Below, piece by piece: positions 1 to 12,270 of a DNA stretch of 12,270 nucleotides. A model generated the notes under the pieces. The model saw only the letters and a program-made list of their open reading frames with translations, was not told where the DNA came from and made no database searches. A program made the position numbers and the translations under genes. Numbering within the stretch: position 1 is the stretch's first letter; the number at the start of each line of letters is the position of its first letter. Origin of the DNA: Nitrospirota bacterium (lineage in GTDB: Bacteria > Nitrospirota > Thermodesulfovibrionia > Thermodesulfovibrionales > UBA6898); the NCBI GenBank assembly GCA_021787505.1, contig JAJYLU010000012.1:1-12270 (forward strand), given 5' to 3'.

Positions 1-540
1 CTTAATGAGACAGGTGCAAATCTCAACGCAACTGTCAATGCCGGCAATAGCAGCACGGACGTCACTTTCGAATATGGGGCAACCACCTCATATGGAAGCA
101 GTGTCGCGGCAGTCCCGGCCACGGTTGCCGGGAGTTCGGATGCGGCGGTAAGTGCGGCACTCGCAGGGCTTACAGCGGGCACTACATATCACTACCGTGT
201 AGTGGGCTCGAGCATTGCAGGCCTCTCGTATGGCGGAGATATTACGTTTGTCACATGCTCACCCGAGCAAATAAGGATTGGCGCAAGCGCATACCCGTCG
301 ATCCAGGCGGCCATTACAGCTGCGGCGGACAACAACGCCGTCATCGAGGCGAAGGCCGGAGATTTCGCTGAAGACCTCACCTTCACCGGGGCGGGGACGG
401 TGACCCTTAAAGGCGGCTACGACTGCGCGTTTGTCTCGAATCCGGACTTTACCACGATAACCGGCGCAGGCGGCACCAGCGGCTCGGTCACCATAGAGGG
501 ATCGGGTAAGGTCATCCTCGAAAACATTGTTGTGCAGTGA
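1..540 (+). CDS. Surface protein C-terminus: fibronectin-III-like plus beta-helix-like segment (5' partial)
   Basis: Frame 1 is open from the first base to the TGA at 538-540, giving 179 residues of a protein that begins outside the window. Residues about 1-83 look like one fibronectin-III or similar beta-sandwich repeat: it is Gly/Ser/Thr/Ala rich, has the signature GLTAGTTYHYRVVG, and ends in a TFVTC-like edge strand. Residues 84-179 contain YPSIQAAITAA, then TFTGAGTVTLKGGYDC and VTIEGSGKVILENIVVQ, which resemble the entry strands of a right-handed parallel beta helix as in pectate-lyase-like surface proteins. The chain stops soon after the first helix-like turns, so the helix is short or incomplete. 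There is no membrane anchor or sorting motif at the C-terminus. Export to the cell surface is inferred from composition. Binding partner and function are unknown. It lies 154 bp upstream of the glycosyltransferase pair and is probably a separate unit. Confidence 0.8.
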   Translation, partial: LNETGANLNATVNAGNSSTDVTFEYGATTSYGSSVAAVPATVAGSSDAAVSAALAGLTAGTTYHYRVVGSSIAGLSYGGDITFVTCSPEQIRIGASAYPSIQAAITAAADNNAVIEAKAGDFAEDLTFTGAGTVTLKGGYDCAFVSNPDFTTITGAGGTSGSVTIEGSGKVILENIVVQ

Positions 541-2932: not shown

Positions 2933-4087
2933 TTATTCTGAAAAAATGACCGGCTTAATGTTCTCTTTTTTGCTGATCCGGACTGCCATTTCCCGGGATT
3001 TCTTCCTGTCTTCAAACTTGCCCACCAGTACCCGATATATGACACCCTTGCCTTTAACATCGCTCTTCAGGGTAAATGCATCATACCCTTTTTCCTTCAG
3101 TTTTTTTGAGAGAGTCGCGGCATTTGTCTCATTTCTGAAGACCCCGACCTGGACCGAGTAGACCGTCTTGCCCGAGGATTTTTCTGCCGTGGCGGCCTTG
3201 GCCGCAGGGGCCGGGACCGAAGATGCCGCCGTACTGCCCGCTTTCCCGTCTGCAGCGTGGGGCGCGTTAGCGGTAACCGGCGGTTGGACGGCAGCCGGAG
3301 CAGACGCTGGTTCAGCAACGGGTGAAGCTTCAGGCTTTTTCGGCTTCTCGACTGTCCCTGGCGGCGCCGCCGGAATCTTTGTCTGAAGGCCGGTCCCCGG
3401 TATAATCCCGCTGTAATACAGACCTCCCGCCACACCGACGATCACCAATACCGCAAGGAGCGCCACCAGCGCCTTCCTGCTCTTTCTTCCCCCAGCGGTC
3501 TCTTCTTCAGGGATGTAGGATTCGGCAGGCTCCTCCCGCTCCTCTTGAGGGCCCTTAAGGACTTCTTCGCCCTCTTCTTCCATGTCCGCTATTTCTGACA
3601 AGTCCGACAGACGGGACTTCGGCGAGACCTCTTCTTGCAGTCCGGGGGATGGCGATTCGGCAGCAGGCACTTTGTCTTCCCTGAACTCAGGGGCTTTCTC
3701 CCTGACACGAAGCACGACAGGGGACTTGATGTTAATGGCCTTTTCGGTCTTTTCGAGGAGTTCGGCCGCGCTGGCCGGCATTGACAGGTAGTCGACCGCG
3801 CCGTAGGGACCGAGGTCAGTTCCCCCGGGACCGGAGGCGAGCAAAATAATCGGCACGGTCTTCAGCGACTCATAGCTGCGTATCGTCTTGCAGACCTCCA
3901 TGCCCTTCTCGCCTGTATCCTCGGGATTCACGAAAATCAGGGAAGGCCTGACCTTCTGGGCCATCTCGGCGCCCACGTCACCCCCGGGAACTGCAAAGAC
4001 GAGATAACCTTCGGTTTCCAGAGTAGACGCGATGAACTGTTCTGTTTCGCTATCGGCGTCGATTACGAGGACCGTCTTGCTTGCCAT
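2933..4087 (-). CDS. Degenerate receiver-TM-SPOR domain protein
   Basis: This 384-residue protein has an unusual domain order. Residues 4-118 have the fold pattern of a response-regulator receiver (VLVIDAD at 6-12, PIILLAS at 79-85, DYLSMPAS at 99-106). The phosphoacceptor Asp is replaced by N54 (IFVNPED) and the conserved Lys by M103, so phosphotransfer is unlikely. An acidic linker (about 130-198) leads to one membrane helix at 206-225. A Pro/Ala-rich linker follows, then a C-terminal SPOR domain at 307-384 (YSVQVGVFRNETNAATLSKK through VLVGKFEDR). SPOR domains bind glycan strands stripped of stem peptides by amidases, typically at septa. The receiver is predicted cytoplasmic and the SPOR domain periplasmic. 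The ATG at 4087 has a GGGAG ribosome site 7 nt upstream. It lies 36 bp after the actin gene and is the last gene of the amidase-actin cassette. A role in localising or sensing peptidoglycan remodelling is inferred. Confidence 0.9.
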   Translation of the reverse strand: MASKTVLVIDADSETEQFIASTLETEGYLVFAVPGGDVGAEMAQKVRPSLIFVNPEDTGEKGMEVCKTIRSYESLKTVPIILLASGPGGTDLGPYGAVDYLSMPASAAELLEKTEKAINIKSPVVLRVREKAPEFREDKVPAAESPSPGLQEEVSPKSRLSDLSEIADMEEEGEEVLKGPQEEREEPAESYIPEEETAGGRKSRKALVALLAVLVIVGVAGGLYYSGIIPGTGLQTKIPAAPPGTVEKPKKPEASPVAEPASAPAAVQPPVTANAPHAADGKAGSTAASSVPAPAAKAATAEKSSGKTVYSVQVGVFRNETNAATLSKKLKEKGYDAFTLKSDVKGKGVIYRVLVGKFEDRKKSREMAVRISKKENIKPVIFSE

Positions 4088-4123
4088 GGTAAATCTCCCG
4101 TCTTCAGATGTAGTGAGAGAATC

Positions 4124-5152
4124 TCAAAGAGGTTCCCAGTATTTCGAGGGCATGTCCTGCGCGAGTTTCAGCGCACCGTCGGAGCCCGCAAATAGTGGGT
4201 CTTCGACGCACGACACCTTGCAGGGGCCGTATTCCTTCAGCGCATCCTGAAGGTGCTCGCGAAGCCCCCTGATAAGACTGCCGCCTCCCGCCAGGACGAT
4301 GTTGTTCTTTATCTTCACCTGAAACTCAGGGTCGAATCGCGCGATCATCTCTGCCGTGGTTTCGGCCAGCGCCGGCAGGATACTTTCGCATGCGCGCCTT
4401 ATCTCGTTCTTGATGTCGTGCATCACCGGCTTGCCGTCGACGGGGATTTCCACCCGTATCTCCTCCGGCGTGTCCCGGACAAAGCTGTACTGTTCCTTGA
4501 ACTGCCGGACCATATTTTTGTTGAACTTTGAATTCGGGTATTTCTCGCTGAGGTAACTGAAGAGCTGCTCGTCTATGTAATCGCCCGCCGTCAGGACAGT
4601 CTTCTGGTCCTCTTCCGACGGTATAGACCCGTGCATAATACAGAAGTCCGCCGTGCCGGCGCCGATGTCGATCACCATCGAATTATTCAGGAGGTTCATG
4701 CCGTACGCCACCGCAAAAGGCTCCGTCACAACCATCAGCGAATGGACGAACTCTGTCACCGCCTTTCGGATCGCCAGCTTGTTCACCTTCAGCGTGTCGG
4801 CGGGAACACCGACGACCGCTTGTATCTTTTGTCCCGATGCAGGACCGGAAAGTTCGATCAGGTGTCTGATGATCTCCTTCACCGCCTCATCGTTCCTGTT
4901 GATGCCTTCCTTGATAACGCCGTGTTCAAGGGGCCGGCAGATATCAAGGGAAAGCCTGTTCTGCAAAGCCTCGGAGCCGAACAGCACCGGCTTGCCAACC
5001 ACCTGCATCGCAATAAAATCCTTCGGCCAGCCGACGAAACTTTCTATCCACTCCCGCTTTCCGTTGCCCGCCGAGATCGAACTCCTCGACGTCCCGAGGT
5101 CGATCCCGACAAACAATACCTCATCTTTTTTCCGCGTATCTGTCTGCGCCAT
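4124..5152 (-). CDS. MamK-like bacterial actin ATPase
   Basis: This 342-residue actin-superfamily ATPase matches the usual MamK length. Phosphate-1 loop: FVGIDLGTS at 14-22. Phosphate-2: VIDIGAGTADFC at 160-171. Adenosine motif: NIVLAGGGSLIRGL from 284. E144 in VVTEPFAVAYG corresponds to the catalytic glutamate of MamK. From memory, the FVGWPKDFI stretch, the CVEDPLFAGSDGAL stretch and the SKYWEPL C-terminus resemble Magnetospirillum MamK more than MreB, ParM or DnaK, and there is no Hsp70 C-terminal domain. MamK-type proteins polymerise into cytoplasmic filaments that position magnetosomes; close relatives also occur in Deltaproteobacteria and Nitrospirae. The ATG at 5152 has an AAAGGAG ribosome site 9 nt upstream. 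The gene overlaps the amidase gene by 32 bp. No mam, mad or man neighbours are visible, so I infer a filament linked to envelope remodelling and leave the gene symbol blank. Confidence 0.88.
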   Translation of the reverse strand: MAQTDTRKKDEVLFVGIDLGTSRSSISAGNGKREWIESFVGWPKDFIAMQVVGKPVLFGSEALQNRLSLDICRPLEHGVIKEGINRNDEAVKEIIRHLIELSGPASGQKIQAVVGVPADTLKVNKLAIRKAVTEFVHSLMVVTEPFAVAYGMNLLNNSMVIDIGAGTADFCIMHGSIPSEEDQKTVLTAGDYIDEQLFSYLSEKYPNSKFNKNMVRQFKEQYSFVRDTPEEIRVEIPVDGKPVMHDIKNEIRRACESILPALAETTAEMIARFDPEFQVKIKNNIVLAGGGSLIRGLREHLQDALKEYGPCKVSCVEDPLFAGSDGALKLAQDMPSKYWEPL

Positions 5153-6167
5153 AGCCTGCTTCTCCTTTATTTATATAGTCCAGTATCCCCGCTTCTAGGT
5201 CATGCGCGATATTTTCCCTGTGCGCCTCGGTATTGAGCTGCTTCTCTTCCTGCCTGTTGCTGAGGCATGACACCTCCGCAAGAACGGCCGGCACTTCGGC
5301 GCCGAGGAGCACAACAAAAGGCGCCCGCTTTACCCCAAAGTTGTAGGCATTTCCGTTTTCCTTTTCCATATTTGCAAAAAGGTTCTTCTGTATGGAATAG
5401 GCAAGTTCCCTCGATTCCTGGAGTTTGAGTTTCTGACCGAGCTTCTCGATGATCTCCTTGAATTCACCGAGGCCGTATTGGGAACCGGCGTTTTCCTGTT
5501 CGGCGAGCTCCTGCGTCTTGCTGTCAGCGGATGGACCGAAATAATACGTCTCGATGATATTGATCGGCTTCGAAGGAAGATAATTCAGATGTATCGAGAC
5601 GAAGAGGTCGGCCTTTGCCTCCCTGGCAAGTTCGACCCGCTTGTTGAGGGGCAGCGTGACGTCTTCGCTCCGTGTCATGACAACATGGAAACGTCCGTAC
5701 TTGTCGAGACGGGACTTGAGACGTTTTGCAATATCGAGGGCGATGTCCTTCTCCGCGGTTCCCATCTTCCCCCTTGTCCCCGAATCCACACCGCCATGGC
5801 CCGCATCGATCATGATCGTCTTGACTCCCAAACCGAAAGTGCGGCTTACCGACACGTCCGCATTTGTGATAAAGGCCTTAAAATCCGAGGGGTTCGGCAA
5901 TTCAGCGGACCAAGGGAGCTGACGCATCACTGTCCCCCCCGCTGTCTGCTTTTCGGCAAGCAAGGGGGCATCCAGATAATTACCCCCCGCCAGGACAACT
6001 ATCGCCGCAATACATAATATCAGTAAGAGCCTGTTCGGAGAGAACGTCCGCTGTCTCAAAAGGGCGCCCTTTTTCTTGCCGATTATCCGCAGATTCTCTT
6101 CGTAGATCCCTTTCAGGATCTCCTGGCGAACCCTCAGCTCTTTCTTCCTGAAAAAAGCGGAAATCAT
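5121..6167 (-). CDS. Membrane-anchored N-acetylmuramoyl-L-alanine amidase (Amidase_3)
   Basis: This zinc amidase cleaves the bond between N-acetylmuramic acid and the stem peptide in the periplasm. Numbering from the upstream GTG at 6179, the Amidase_3 domain runs from about 120 to 340. Its zinc ligands are H128 in IDAGHGGVDSG, E143 in TAEKD and H197 in VSIHLN; the catalytic glutamate is E302 in VLAEVSCLSN. Before it lie about 50 mostly basic residues and a single hydrophobic helix (about 51-65, LLLILCIAAIVVLAGG). The enzyme is therefore probably tethered to the inner membrane with a cytoplasmic tail, rather than exported by a cleaved Tat signal as in AmiC. I chose ATG 6167; GTG 6179 adds four residues, and neither has a Shine-Dalgarno. 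It is the first gene of the amidase-actin-SPOR operon and overlaps the actin start by 32 bp, suggesting coupled expression. Septal splitting or localised wall trimming is inferred. Confidence 0.9.
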   Translation of the reverse strand: MISAFFRKKELRVRQEILKGIYEENLRIIGKKKGALLRQRTFSPNRLLLILCIAAIVVLAGGNYLDAPLLAEKQTAGGTVMRQLPWSAELPNPSDFKAFITNADVSVSRTFGLGVKTIMIDAGHGGVDSGTRGKMGTAEKDIALDIAKRLKSRLDKYGRFHVVMTRSEDVTLPLNKRVELAREAKADLFVSIHLNYLPSKPINIIETYYFGPSADSKTQELAEQENAGSQYGLGEFKEIIEKLGQKLKLQESRELAYSIQKNLFANMEKENGNAYNFGVKRAPFVVLLGAEVPAVLAEVSCLSNRQEEKQLNTEAHRENIAHDLEAGILDYINKGEAGYGADRYAEKR

Positions 6168-6179
6168 AATAGTATGCAC

Positions 6180-8227: not shown

Positions 8228-8450
8228 CAGGATATTCTCCTCATTTCATCGAAAGGATAGTACACTTGCATCTCCTCAAACGGCCTGCCGGGACAGAAGT
8301 CGTTCCATTGCTTCCGCAGGTAACTTTCCCACTTACTGTAGAAGTGATCACCCAGCAGATAAATTATCGAATATGAATCGCTGGACCATGCAGGAAAAGT
8401 CTTCGAGCTTCTTTTCTGTTACGGTCTTGCCGATAACGCTTTCCGCATGT
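8228..8450 (-). pseudogene. Decayed 3' end of a GT2 glycosyltransferase gene (duplicate of the tail at 11.6-11.85 kb)
   Basis: This is a diverged copy of the last ~75 codons of the glycosyltransferase at 11581-12270. Two blocks are exactly identical: 56 nt (8395-8450 with 11793-11848) and 30 nt (8364-8393 with 11753-11782). Translation gives HAESVIGKTVTEKKLEDF, then CMVQRFIFDN; the intact copy has three more residues here, a 9-bp in-frame deletion. One extra base near 8356-8363 then shifts the frame, after which KWESYLRKQWNDFCPGRPFE and YYPFDEMR continue in the next frame. There is no start and nothing of the catalytic domain. The homology stops abruptly at 8450/8451, where transposase sequence begins, so both are remnants of a rearrangement. 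It cannot encode a functional enzyme. Confidence 0.88.
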
Positions 8451-8975: not shown

Positions 8976-10538
8976 ATGGTACTTGGCGGACACAACAAGT
9001 TCAGGCAATTTGCTGAAGTATCCTTTGACAATCTAAGTAATTGGTATGAAAAGAACAAGACAGTTTTTTGGGCGACTTATGTCGTTACGCTAATCGCTTA
9101 CAGCTATATTTTCACTTCCATAGGATTTACGAATCATACCTTCCCCCAGGCATGGACATATGCATATCCGTCTTACAAGACGAAGATAGAAGGGCGATGG
9201 TTCTCGGATTTGCTGCTTAGGCTTCTTGGCGGCGCAGGCGTGCAGTCCTCGCAAATGTATATTGCAATTGGCCTATTTATTGTCAACGCCATAATCGTAG
9301 CGGAAATGTTTGGTGCTGAAGGCAGGATTGCAACTTTCTTTGCCGCCGCTTTCTTGAGCGTCTACCCGGCAATTTTAGACCGCTATTCCTTCCCGGGGTG
9401 TGAAATTATGTTCGTAACGGCAGATACTTTTGCCGTGCTTGCCGTCTTCGTTTTGCATCGCCAGAGGAACGCATGGAAGGCCTTGGCAGGGGCCGTACCG
9501 CTAATTGTACTTTGCTTGGCTACTTATCAGCCCGCGATTGGGCTAGCGGCGTTTCTTGTCTTGGCTTTCTGCGTGCTGTTGATTTTACGAACACAGGAAG
9601 GCGATTCCCATAATGTTATCCCTGTCGGACGGCTGGCAGCTGCGATAGGGGCTATGGTGCTGGGAATGGCAGCATATTACGCCACAGTGAGGATGACGGT
9701 TAGTCTGAATACGCACCAAAGGACACACGTCAACAGCCTCCAGGAAGTCATCGGTCAAATCATTGGATCGTTTCCAGCGTTCGTCAAATATTTCACCTCG
9801 GGATCGGACTATCTCCCGCCTTCATTGCGATGGTTGCCCCTGACGGTGATTCTGCTCGGGTCTGTTTCGCTTATTTTCATGGCATGGCGCAAAAGGTTTC
9901 CTGCGGTCCTTGCCGTTATATTTCTTCTTGGCCTCATGCCCGTTGCCCTTCGTGCCACCTATATTATCAATTCTCAATCATTTGAGGATGTCGGGCGAAT
10001 TGTTTATCCATATGGATTTGCGCTTCTTTTCTTTCTGCTGGCCAGCCGAAGAATAAGAAGGCTTAGAATGGTTTCGTATTCTGCTATTATTTTGCTGACT
10101 TATTTCTGTCTGGTATTGGCGACTCAAGAAACAAACAAGGCCTACTTAAAGAAAATTTTTGATACGAACAAGATAAATAGAATCGCGGCGAGAATTGAAA
10201 ACGTGGTCCCGGATCTGTATTCGAAAAAACGGCCGCTGGTGGTCGCGGGGTATTTGAGCATGAATGATGCAAATTACAAAAACTATCCGAATACAGGCAA
10301 CCGCTCACAGTTAAACGAAGAAACCTTTATTTTCTATCGACAGCCGGAACTTCTGAACTTCTACTTCGGCCGGGATGTTCTCGATTCTCCAACTATTCAG
10401 CAGCGCGACCGCGCTATACTCAGCATGAAAGGACGGCGGCCATGGCCTGCTCCGGACTCGGTATACGTCGCCGACGGCATAGTTGTTGTACTTCTGGAAG
10501 AATACAAACCCGGAGTTCCGATCACCTGGACCAAATGA
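8976..10538 (+). CDS. GtrII-type multi-spanning glucosyltransferase (O-antigen decoration)
   Basis: This 520-residue integral membrane protein matches the GtrII-type glucosyltransferase pattern in size and motifs. After a ~30-residue cytoplasmic start, the first helix (about 31-50) is followed by a loop with AYPSYKTKIEGRWFSDLLLR (63-82), the region bearing the family's conserved Arg-Trp/Pro. Further helices follow, including one with CLATYQPAIGLAAFLVL (180-196), matching the SYQ-like motif. About ten helices lead to a soluble C-terminal domain from roughly 390. GtrII-type enzymes take a hexose from undecaprenyl-phosphate-hexose and add it to O-antigen in the periplasm; a GtrB-type donor-making enzyme is encoded at 6271-7224 on the opposite strand. 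I start at ATG 8976, which has GAAAGGTG just upstream; a GTG at 8970 lies inside that ribosome site. The attached sugar is unknown. It ends 52 bp before the next methyltransferase. Confidence 0.82.
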   Translation: MVLGGHNKFRQFAEVSFDNLSNWYEKNKTVFWATYVVTLIAYSYIFTSIGFTNHTFPQAWTYAYPSYKTKIEGRWFSDLLLRLLGGAGVQSSQMYIAIGLFIVNAIIVAEMFGAEGRIATFFAAAFLSVYPAILDRYSFPGCEIMFVTADTFAVLAVFVLHRQRNAWKALAGAVPLIVLCLATYQPAIGLAAFLVLAFCVLLILRTQEGDSHNVIPVGRLAAAIGAMVLGMAAYYATVRMTVSLNTHQRTHVNSLQEVIGQIIGSFPAFVKYFTSGSDYLPPSLRWLPLTVILLGSVSLIFMAWRKRFPAVLAVIFLLGLMPVALRATYIINSQSFEDVGRIVYPYGFALLFFLLASRRIRRLRMVSYSAIILLTYFCLVLATQETNKAYLKKIFDTNKINRIAARIENVVPDLYSKKRPLVVAGYLSMNDANYKNYPNTGNRSQLNEETFIFYRQPELLNFYFGRDVLDSPTIQQRDRAILSMKGRRPWPAPDSVYVADGIVVVLLEEYKPGVPITWTK

Positions 10539-11580: not shown

Positions 11581-12270
11581 TTAAGTTCTCTCTCCTGTAA
11601 GAATCTCCCCTTGCCCCAGGATTCTTTTCCGCATTTCAGCAAAAGGGTAATACGCCTCCAGTTCCTCAAACGGCCTGCCGGGAAAGAAGTCGTTCCATTG
11701 CTTCCGCAGATAGCCTTCCCACTTGACCGAAAAGTCCTCATCCAGCCTGTAGTTATCGAATATGAATCGCTGGACCATGCAGAACTCCCGGAAAAAGTCT
11801 TCGAGCTTCTTTTCTGTTACGGTCTTGCCGATAACGCTTTCCGCATGTCTTCTGTGATAATTAAGTTTAGCGGCATCGTAATGCACTTTACCGCCCTTTA
11901 TAACGTTGACTATGAAGTACCAGTCTCCGGCGATGCGCATTCCTTCAAGCGTCTTCCTAAACTCCTCATCGAACGCCGGCTTTCTGAAAAGAACGGCACT
12001 TATATTCAGAATCGTGTCCTTTACGCCCAGACCGTCATTGATCTCCTCGACCGCAGATGTCAAATAGCTGTTCTTCCATTTGGTGTGCGAAAGTGACATG
12101 AGGTACTCGCCATTTTCATAATCACCCGTCACTCTGTCGTTCTCATCTATGACGTGGGAATTTGTATACGCCAGTTTCACCTCGGGATTCTGGAAGGCGT
12201 GGAGAAGGGATGTCAAGAAACGGGGTTCGCATGCGTCATCCGATTCGGCTATCCAGATGATATCCGCCCT
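11581..12270 (-). CDS. Glycosyltransferase family 2, C-terminal part (5' partial)
   Basis: The frame is open from the right edge to TAA 11581-11583, giving 229 residues of a protein that begins outside the window. The visible start, ADIIWIAESDDACEPRFL, is the DxD-like metal-binding region of GT-A enzymes. It is followed by VKLAYTNSHVIDEND, a SAVLFRKPAFDE stretch, and RIAGDWYFIVNVIKGGKV (acceptor-side W/Y region). Then come LNYHRRHAESVIGKT and the basic tail ending ILTGERT. The N-terminal VSVIIPxYN strand is missing only because of the window edge. The protein is likely a cytoplasmic glycosyltransferase for surface glycan assembly, and could be a domain of a longer multi-domain enzyme. It converges on the methyltransferase gene across 54 bp. 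Its last ~75 codons are duplicated, in decayed form, at 8228-8450. Confidence 0.88.
   Translation of the reverse strand, partial: RADIIWIAESDDACEPRFLTSLLHAFQNPEVKLAYTNSHVIDENDRVTGDYENGEYLMSLSHTKWKNSYLTSAVEEINDGLGVKDTILNISAVLFRKPAFDEEFRKTLEGMRIAGDWYFIVNVIKGGKVHYDAAKLNYHRRHAESVIGKTVTEKKLEDFFREFCMVQRFIFDNYRLDEDFSVKWEGYLRKQWNDFFPGRPFEELEAYYPFAEMRKRILGQGEILTGERT
11620..11848 (-). repeat. Intact copy of the duplicated glycosyltransferase tail
   Basis: This segment within the GT2 gene is the counterpart of the remnant at 8228-8450, in the same orientation 3.4 kb away. It includes the exactly matching 56-nt and 30-nt blocks. Because it keeps the reading frame, it probably represents the ancestral state of the 3' end. 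The pair is a potential substrate for recombination that would remove the GtrII-type and methyltransferase genes between them. Confidence 0.85.

Follow-up and report, generated by a model that had tools for sequence, protein, structure and literature searches.

In Magnetospirillum, mamJ lies directly upstream of mamK and MamJ serves as the adaptor of the MamK actin to magnetosomes, and in MV-1 the protein encoded by mg-1g50, upstream of mamK-II, substitutes for MamJ (PMC10653835). The same article considers that MamK adaptors may exist outside the magnetospirilla group, overlooked so far. Relatives of MamK have also been described apart from magnetosomes: the big bacteria protein (Bbp) of Electrothrix gigas, Desulfonema and Beggiatoa relatives is a non-magnetosomal MamK-like actin (PMC10580974, where the main text on Bbp does not contain the word "amidase"), and BeeR of Verrucomicrobiota is a MamK-related actin outside magnetotactic bacteria (PMC11929497). 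Here, we analyze a 12,270-base stretch of DNA from a Nitrospirota bacterium (assembly GCA_021787505.1, contig JAJYLU010000012.1, forward strand; hereafter the window), in which the gene for a MamK-family actin is directly preceded by the gene for a membrane-anchored peptidoglycan amidase. The amidase carries a short conserved tail on the cytosolic side, and it is probable that this tail docks the enzyme on the actin filament, where it would be clustered and possibly triggered. Open-access literature searched for MamK together with amidases, and for MamK-like actins, yielded no description of the amidase-actin pair.

The window resembles the MamK-MamJ system in that its actin belongs to the same NCBIfam family and has its partner gene directly upstream, and in that the upstream partner ends in the motif found in the amidase tail in the majority of MamK clusters from the window's phylum. 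It differs in that the window actin falls in a separate clade and comes without magnetosome genes, and in that its partner is a transmembrane wall amidase carrying the motif in an N-terminal tail. Bbp, in turn, is 37-39% identical to the window actin, belongs to a separate clade and has no amidase neighbor, while BeeR has an N-terminal extension of 30-50 residues that is absent from the window actin, which reaches 226.9 bits against a BeeR cut-off (NF053558) of 530. The window is an entire contig (C391) of a metagenome-assembled genome (MAG) given as 67% complete, so that this assembly has nothing adjoining it, and its closest named relatives are Nitrospirota MAGs. An earlier, sequence-only reading of this DNA had placed three minus-strand genes here, in the order amidase, actin and a receiver-transmembrane-SPOR protein, with a 32-bp overlap and a 36-bp gap; coordinates together with Pfam and NCBIfam scores agree with it exactly. 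The features of the first two genes are as follows.

5121 to 6179, minus strand: membrane-anchored Amidase_3 of the AmiA/B/C type (Pfam Amidase_3, 151 bits)
6084 to 6128, minus strand: 15-residue motif in the cytosolic tail of the amidase, aa 18-32 (RQEILKGIYEENLRI), proposed to dock on the filament (conservation and match to other carriers)
5973 to 6029, minus strand: predicted single transmembrane (TM) helix of the amidase, aa 51-69 (hydropathy 2.47; helix 48-65 in the model)
5160 to 5828, minus strand: catalytic Amidase_3 domain in the periplasm, aa 118-340, bearing an autoinhibitory insertion (alignment)
4124 to 5152, minus strand: MamK-family actin of a separate, amidase-paired clade (NCBIfam MamK NF040964, 411.4 bits)
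5015 to 5050, minus strand: aromatic residues W35, W42 and F46, a cluster specific to this actin clade and a candidate docking site (residue counts)

The pairing of these two genes is widely conserved. A scan of genome contigs, from which the best 80 of 326 relatives were kept as named loci and which leans to close relatives, found an amidase open reading frame (ORF) directly upstream of the actin and on the same strand in 78 of the 80; in L160 the amidase lies in broken frames, L169 has none, and the L096 amidase, counted as present, is cut by the contig start. Protein searches covered the matches listed, 120 of several thousand. Across all clade loci fetched, the arrangement recurs in 119 of 122 (L160 counted as having the amidase), the exceptions being L068 (contig end), L169 and L190; these 122 include contigs fetched twice, and by distinct actins the count is 89 of 92. 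Because the amidase is directly upstream in 119 of the 122 clade loci, the adjacency is not due to chance. In 108 of 119 loci, the stop codon of the amidase falls at most 31 bases ahead of the first-Gly codon of the actin GIDLGTS motif, and the genes therefore overlap or nearly so. Within the stretches fetched, no upstream amidase was found at any of 38 control loci of other MamK-family actins. Five Desulfobacterota loci without amidase (L176, L178, L179, L180 and L181) hold tandem pairs of MamK-family actins.

The named loci are labeled Nitrospirota, Desulfobacterota, Acidobacteriota, Aminicenantes, Rokubacteria and Alpha-, Beta- and Gammaproteobacteria, although such MAG taxonomy labels may be wrong. 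The pair recurs in several phyla, is not confined to the window genome and has a cultured carrier in Desulfosarcina cetonica. In a set of 61 genomes, consisting of the window's own and 60 relatives, 35 carry a MamK-family actin over the cut-off: five of MamK type and 30 of pair type, the latter being the window's genome and 29 relatives with actins 62-98% identical to that of the window. Across the window's phylum, such actins were found in 54 of 395 genomes, 35 amidase-paired and 19 of MamK type when split by score, with gene context seen for all 35 paired and for 17 of 20 MamK-type places. That the two types share no genome carries no weight as evidence, as chance alone predicts about 1.7 genomes with both. 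Carrier-centered samples of 345 Desulfobacterota and 274 Gammaproteobacteria genomes held 15 and 12, respectively, with a MamK-family actin, three of each being amidase-paired (seeds included), along with L190, a clade member without amidase. The triplet proposed by the sequence-only reading held up in part, since the pair is widespread and the SPOR gene stands beside only 27 of the 80 named loci, all 27 labeled Nitrospirota or Thermodesulfovibrio-type. Judged by these gene neighborhoods, the conserved unit is the amidase-actin pair, not the triplet. The pairing might still reflect operon linkage without functional coupling, in which an unrelated actin was simply co-inherited with a regulated AmiA-like enzyme. 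Neighboring genes can travel together, and distances among the amidases track those among the actins (Pearson 0.93, Spearman 0.75), as co-inheritance would also produce; on the other hand, no other neighbor is kept across phyla alongside the pair, the two genes overlap, and the tail motif is conserved, making this explanation very improbable.

The tail itself was followed in an alignment of the window and 78 of the 80 named loci (L160, with its broken frames, and L169 left out), giving 79 rows, 78 of which contain the full tail, as L096 is truncated by the contig start. Fifteen tail residues are as conserved as the active site, while the surrounding region and the TM helix vary: Asn29 is found in 78 of 78 rows, Leu22 in 76, Ile21 in 71 and Tyr26 in 66. 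A first regular expression matched 65 of the 79 amidases and one other ORF among 10,099, and a profile search matched 115 of 119 amidase loci, the four misses being two contig-end cuts, one broken gene and L191, which has a recognizable variant. At the DNA level, a degenerate pattern of the motif gave 22 matches in 21 of the 61 genomes, 21 of them at the amidase (6091-6119 in the window), and the same pattern run backwards gave none in the 61 genomes. The remaining match, in contig C91 of G006, overlaps a start codon out of frame and was rejected as chance. This conserved tail, which the sequence-only reading had seen neither by itself nor in its match to other proteins, is on the alignment and profile evidence the best support for coupling between amidase and actin.

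In its catalytic residues the enzyme is likewise intact. Its zinc ligands, E302 and the blocking-helix Glu are present in 79 of 79 rows, and by alignment the amidase is of the autoinhibited AmiA/B/C type. It shares with E. coli AmiA (8c2o; PMC10268282) the fold, the zinc ligands and the blocking-helix Glu, where AmiA Glu167 corresponds in our reading of the alignment to E229, and it differs from AmiA in its membrane anchor and conserved cytosolic tail. Moreover, the AmiA Asp135 column is Asn199 in 79 of 79 paired amidases, which also have a conserved sequence of their own at the site of the AmiA interaction helix. Because the autoinhibitory latch is kept, the alignment suggests that the enzyme needs an activator. 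Seven pair genomes have three Amidase_3 genes each (the incomplete window genome apart) and three MamK genomes have two, and the paired amidase is therefore an extra one. Translation of the window amidase likely starts at the in-frame ATG at 6167 rather than the GTG at 6179, as 38 of 46 aligned rows have Met there, and a second hydrophobic stretch, residues 288-306 (1.95), lies inside the folded domain.

These features are consistent with a mechanism in which a cytoplasmic MamK-type filament would bind an amidase of the inner membrane, anchored there by a single pass, through its short cytosolic tail, and this autoinhibited AmiA-type hydrolase would be held, clustered and possibly triggered along the filament or at its end. 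An alternative assignment of roles is that the tail mainly anchors or nucleates the filament at membrane and wall, with the amidase domain seating the anchor in peptidoglycan and hydrolysis being secondary. The tail and TM helix are encoded directly before the actin, as such an anchor would have it, and L169 keeps a motif-bearing ORF without a catalytic domain upstream of its actin; yet this ORF is a single, frame-disrupted case, and the zinc ligands, E302 and blocking-helix Glu kept in all 79 rows would be needless for a mere anchor. We therefore consider an anchor of this kind rather unlikely. The L169 ORF (4085-4336, plus strand) has no amidase domain, its hydrophobic stretch continues in another frame, and it was the top non-amidase match to the tail profile among 40,012 ORFs (E 0.054); it is a candidate remnant or shortened partner. 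Of three genomes in a search for further relatives of L169, only that of L169 itself was positive.

Following the L169 ORF, the next-ranked matches to the tail profile are ORFs directly upstream of MamK. These belong to a family found at 17 loci, 15 of the window's phylum (L034-L038, L070-L077, L080 and L089) and two of Desulfobacterota (L171 and L173), all ending in the motif or a variant of it; the L038 member is unnamed in NCBIfam. A matrix built from amidase tails alone gave this family a mean C-terminal score of +10.6 versus -7.6 for the next of 19 families, and separated 13 representatives from 1366 background C-termini with a post hoc p of 1.4e-7; at L080 the rule for picking upstream genes took a spurious ORF and at L078 an unrelated gene, and both were kept in these statistics. 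In the reverse direction, a matrix from 13 MamK-upstream C-termini, scanned over the first 130 residues with Asn at position 12, placed its best window on the tail in 78 of 79 amidases, the 79th having no N-terminus, and 22 of 32 amidase representatives exceeded the 99th percentile of 2234 other ORFs. Genes upstream of Bbp-type actins (L184, L187, L192 and L194) encode small proteins of 121-136 aa, three of the four scoring for the C-terminal motif (p 0.0012 over all four, post hoc) and L192 having a variant; from these scores, they are a possible partner of Bbp. A further carrier, encoded at L079 (8529-9251, plus strand), has a CheW domain (120 bits) and ends in the motif (KKAILSELIKDNLLIK). 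The gene that directly follows it (9363-10442, plus strand) encodes an actin of MamK type without magnetosome-type neighbors, and the CheW-domain protein could represent a chemotaxis cargo on a filament.

The recurrence of the motif suggests that one docking tag may plug different cargoes onto one bacterial filament family. The gene directly upstream of the actin would then be the cargo-adaptor slot of the MamK family, occupied here by a peptidoglycan amidase instead of a magnetosome partner; with the amidase read as its occupant, such a slot accounts for the gene order as well as for the tail and the tail's match. We lean, by a modest measure, towards the wider form of this proposal, in which the slot is defined by the 15-residue docking motif [KR]xx-hydrophobic-L[RK]x[VI]-hydrophobic-x[ED]Nxx[IL], a swap of its carrier (wall amidase, magnetosome adaptor, Bbp partner or CheW protein) re-purposes the filament, and the MamK-upstream protein of the window's phylum is the missing MamJ-like adaptor. 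On motif and position, this family is a candidate MamK adaptor of deep-branching magnetotactic bacteria. It is also conceivable that the tail binds something else, such as lipid, MreB, FtsA or a divisome protein, and that the gene pair is merely co-regulated. Binding of the tail to the paired actin is something we infer, and a short basic helix might touch the membrane; however, the motif recurs in proteins whose genes lie upstream of those for MamK and Bbp and is otherwise rare, and the tailed amidase was not seen in MamK genomes G005, G028 and G040, by amidase count, nor in G780 and G560. A different target for the tail is thus unlikely.

The identity of the actin was examined separately. 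Its ATG is preceded by a Shine-Dalgarno-like AAAGGAG, it passes the NCBIfam MamK cut-off of 400, and its best solved relatives by sequence are MamK (5jyg, E 1.8e-88), followed by BeeR and then MreB. In the trees, one of which used 44 of the 80 named loci, 45 pair actins lie on one side of a branch (92/93), and the window actin belongs to a 49-row clade with an SH-aLRT (Shimodaira-Hasegawa-like approximate likelihood ratio test) of 100; it does not branch inside the magnetosomal MamK clade, and the deeper order is unsure given the long branches of 5jyg and BeeR. By these trees, the window actin is in its own clade, sister of magnetosomal MamK and not MamK itself, and so the MamK-like assignment of the sequence-only reading stands at the level of the family. 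Nor is the actin an MreB or a plasmid actin, which would have counted against that reading: the window actin scores 93.3 and 76.6 bits against MreB cut-offs of 293 and 365.75, its genome carries an MreB of its own, and the 20 plasmid matches listed, out of 61, are 25-28% identical. A Bbp identity was rejected as well, since the named Bbp organisms cluster with L187, in the clade that is 37-39% identical to the window actin. Six actin positions are specific to the clade, namely W35, W42, F46, V91, V114 and V132, with the first three found in 89, 93 and 93 of 93 clade actins versus 0, 5 and 0 of 43 other MamK-family actins. From these counts, W35, W42 and F46 are a possible partner of the Tyr special to the amidase tails. 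This cluster could not be placed in the structure because the actin model is of middling confidence (mean predicted local distance difference test, pLDDT, 69.7, with residues 40-86 below 50).

Passing the MamK cut-off in an incomplete MAG raises the possibility that this is a magnetosome MamK whose remaining genes are missing from the assembly. Five genomes of the 61 hold true MamK (G005, G028, G040, G051 and G060; 463-470 bits, 42-45% identical to the window actin), next to homologues of L038 proteins of the MamP, MamB, MamA and MamE-like types. A magnetosome marker, the protein encoded at L038:12502-13158, was found in exactly these five genomes and in none of the 30 pair-bearing ones, 24 of which are at least 90% complete. 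In the fetched stretches, magnetosome-type neighbors occur at 15 of 17 MamK-type loci of the window's phylum and at none of L078, L079 (the two G185 actins) or the four Bbp loci; two of 118 pair loci show a single weak match each to a magnetosome-type protein, of the generic TPR and CDF families, and pair actins do not lie in magnetosome gene clusters. With the actin also in a separate clade and the idea already refuted for its relatives, a magnetosome MamK, including one left in a broken cluster, is scarcely credible. The suggestion of the sequence-only reading that a MamK relative is used outside magnetosomes is borne out, and its worry that magnetosome genes lie just beyond the window is answered, within this assembly, by the window being a whole contig and by the marker-free pair genomes.

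The third gene of the window encodes an optional component.

2933 to 4087, minus strand: pseudo-receiver, TM and SPOR protein, optional third component (Pfam domain matches)
3713 to 4087, minus strand: degenerate receiver domain, aa 1-125, with Asn54 at the phospho-acceptor position (31.0 bits, cut-off 30.2)
3416 to 3472, minus strand: predicted TM helix, aa 206-224 (hydropathy 2.59)
2945 to 3166, minus strand: SPOR domain, aa 308-381 (PF05036, 53.3 bits, cut-off 21)

SPOR domains bind denuded glycans (PMC6895207). The receiver of this protein lacks the phospho-acceptor Asp expected of a response regulator, which is mostly lost across the family as well (at position 54, Asp in 2 and Asn in 17 of 31), and the protein scores 32.1 bits against an NCBIfam FtsN cut-off of 107.65. 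Its gene stands beside the pair at 30 of 38 loci of the window's phylum, one miss (L083) being cut by the contig end, and was not found at pair loci of other phyla, where some stretches end just after the actin. In FtsA, FtsN and AmiA/B/C, an actin homologue inside the cell, a bitopic SPOR protein and an autoinhibited amidase that makes the SPOR ligand offer a parallel. The two are not homologous as systems, and the window differs in that its amidase carries its own cytosolic tail and its SPOR partner is optional. At Nitrospirota-type loci, the third protein would have its pseudo-receiver on the cytoplasmic side and its SPOR domain in the periplasm; there it may recognize glycan that the amidase has stripped and exert feedback on the module, in a way that resembles FtsA, FtsN and the septal amidases. 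Accordingly, of the trans-envelope module in the sequence-only reading, the membrane-anchored amidase genetically tied to a MamK relative is retained, and the SPOR protein becomes an accessory seen only at Nitrospirota-type loci. It was not upheld that the receiver-SPOR protein is exclusive to the pair. A second receiver-SPOR family apart from the actin pair occurs at G000:C45:3820-5001 and similarly in many relatives.

Several observations weigh against a docking tail and the slot built on it. The motif is only 15 residues long, all statistics on its sharing were run after the match had been seen, and because the members within each carrier class are homologous, about four carriers count as independent, namely the amidase, the family upstream of MamK, the protein upstream of Bbp and a single CheW protein. 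The motif does not occur upstream of alpha/gamma-type MamK (four loci), though these lie within magnetosome-type clusters, and its C-terminal form is absent upstream of two other MamK-family clades, a small Desulfobacterota clade (five loci) and the tandem clade (five loci; L181, a tandem-clade protein, has an internal score of 10.3). L169 and L190, without an amidase of this family, indicate that the actin may work without one. Lastly, the SPOR protein has no tail motif, its gene is optional at pair loci, and its paralogues occur elsewhere, including in genomes without the pair. If docking by the amidase tail is nonetheless correct, a filament family known from magnetosomes would also position a wall hydrolase from the cytoplasmic side by way of a single-pass anchor, which makes a wall-remodeling route distinct from MreB-RodZ and FtsA-FtsN. 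One short, mutable motif would make filament docking directly testable, and a candidate would be named for the MamK adaptors outside the magnetospirilla that may have been overlooked (PMC10653835).

The remainder of the window adds little to the pair. A promoter scan gave six sites versus 3.3 expected, none directly before the amidase. Glycosyltransferases were considered as part of the module and are unsupported, as none is kept across phyla: the upstream GT2 gene varies in distance within the genus, and two downstream glycosyltransferases recur in the genus and otherwise only at L050 and L054. The gene at 11581-12270 is glycosyltransferase-like with no Pfam match, and a fragment of it forms a duplicated stretch of about 234 bp (8228-8450 and 11617-11848, 84% identical). 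At the other end, an open-ended ORF (1-540, plus strand) encodes a repetitive surface-type protein, which we take to be fibronectin-like.

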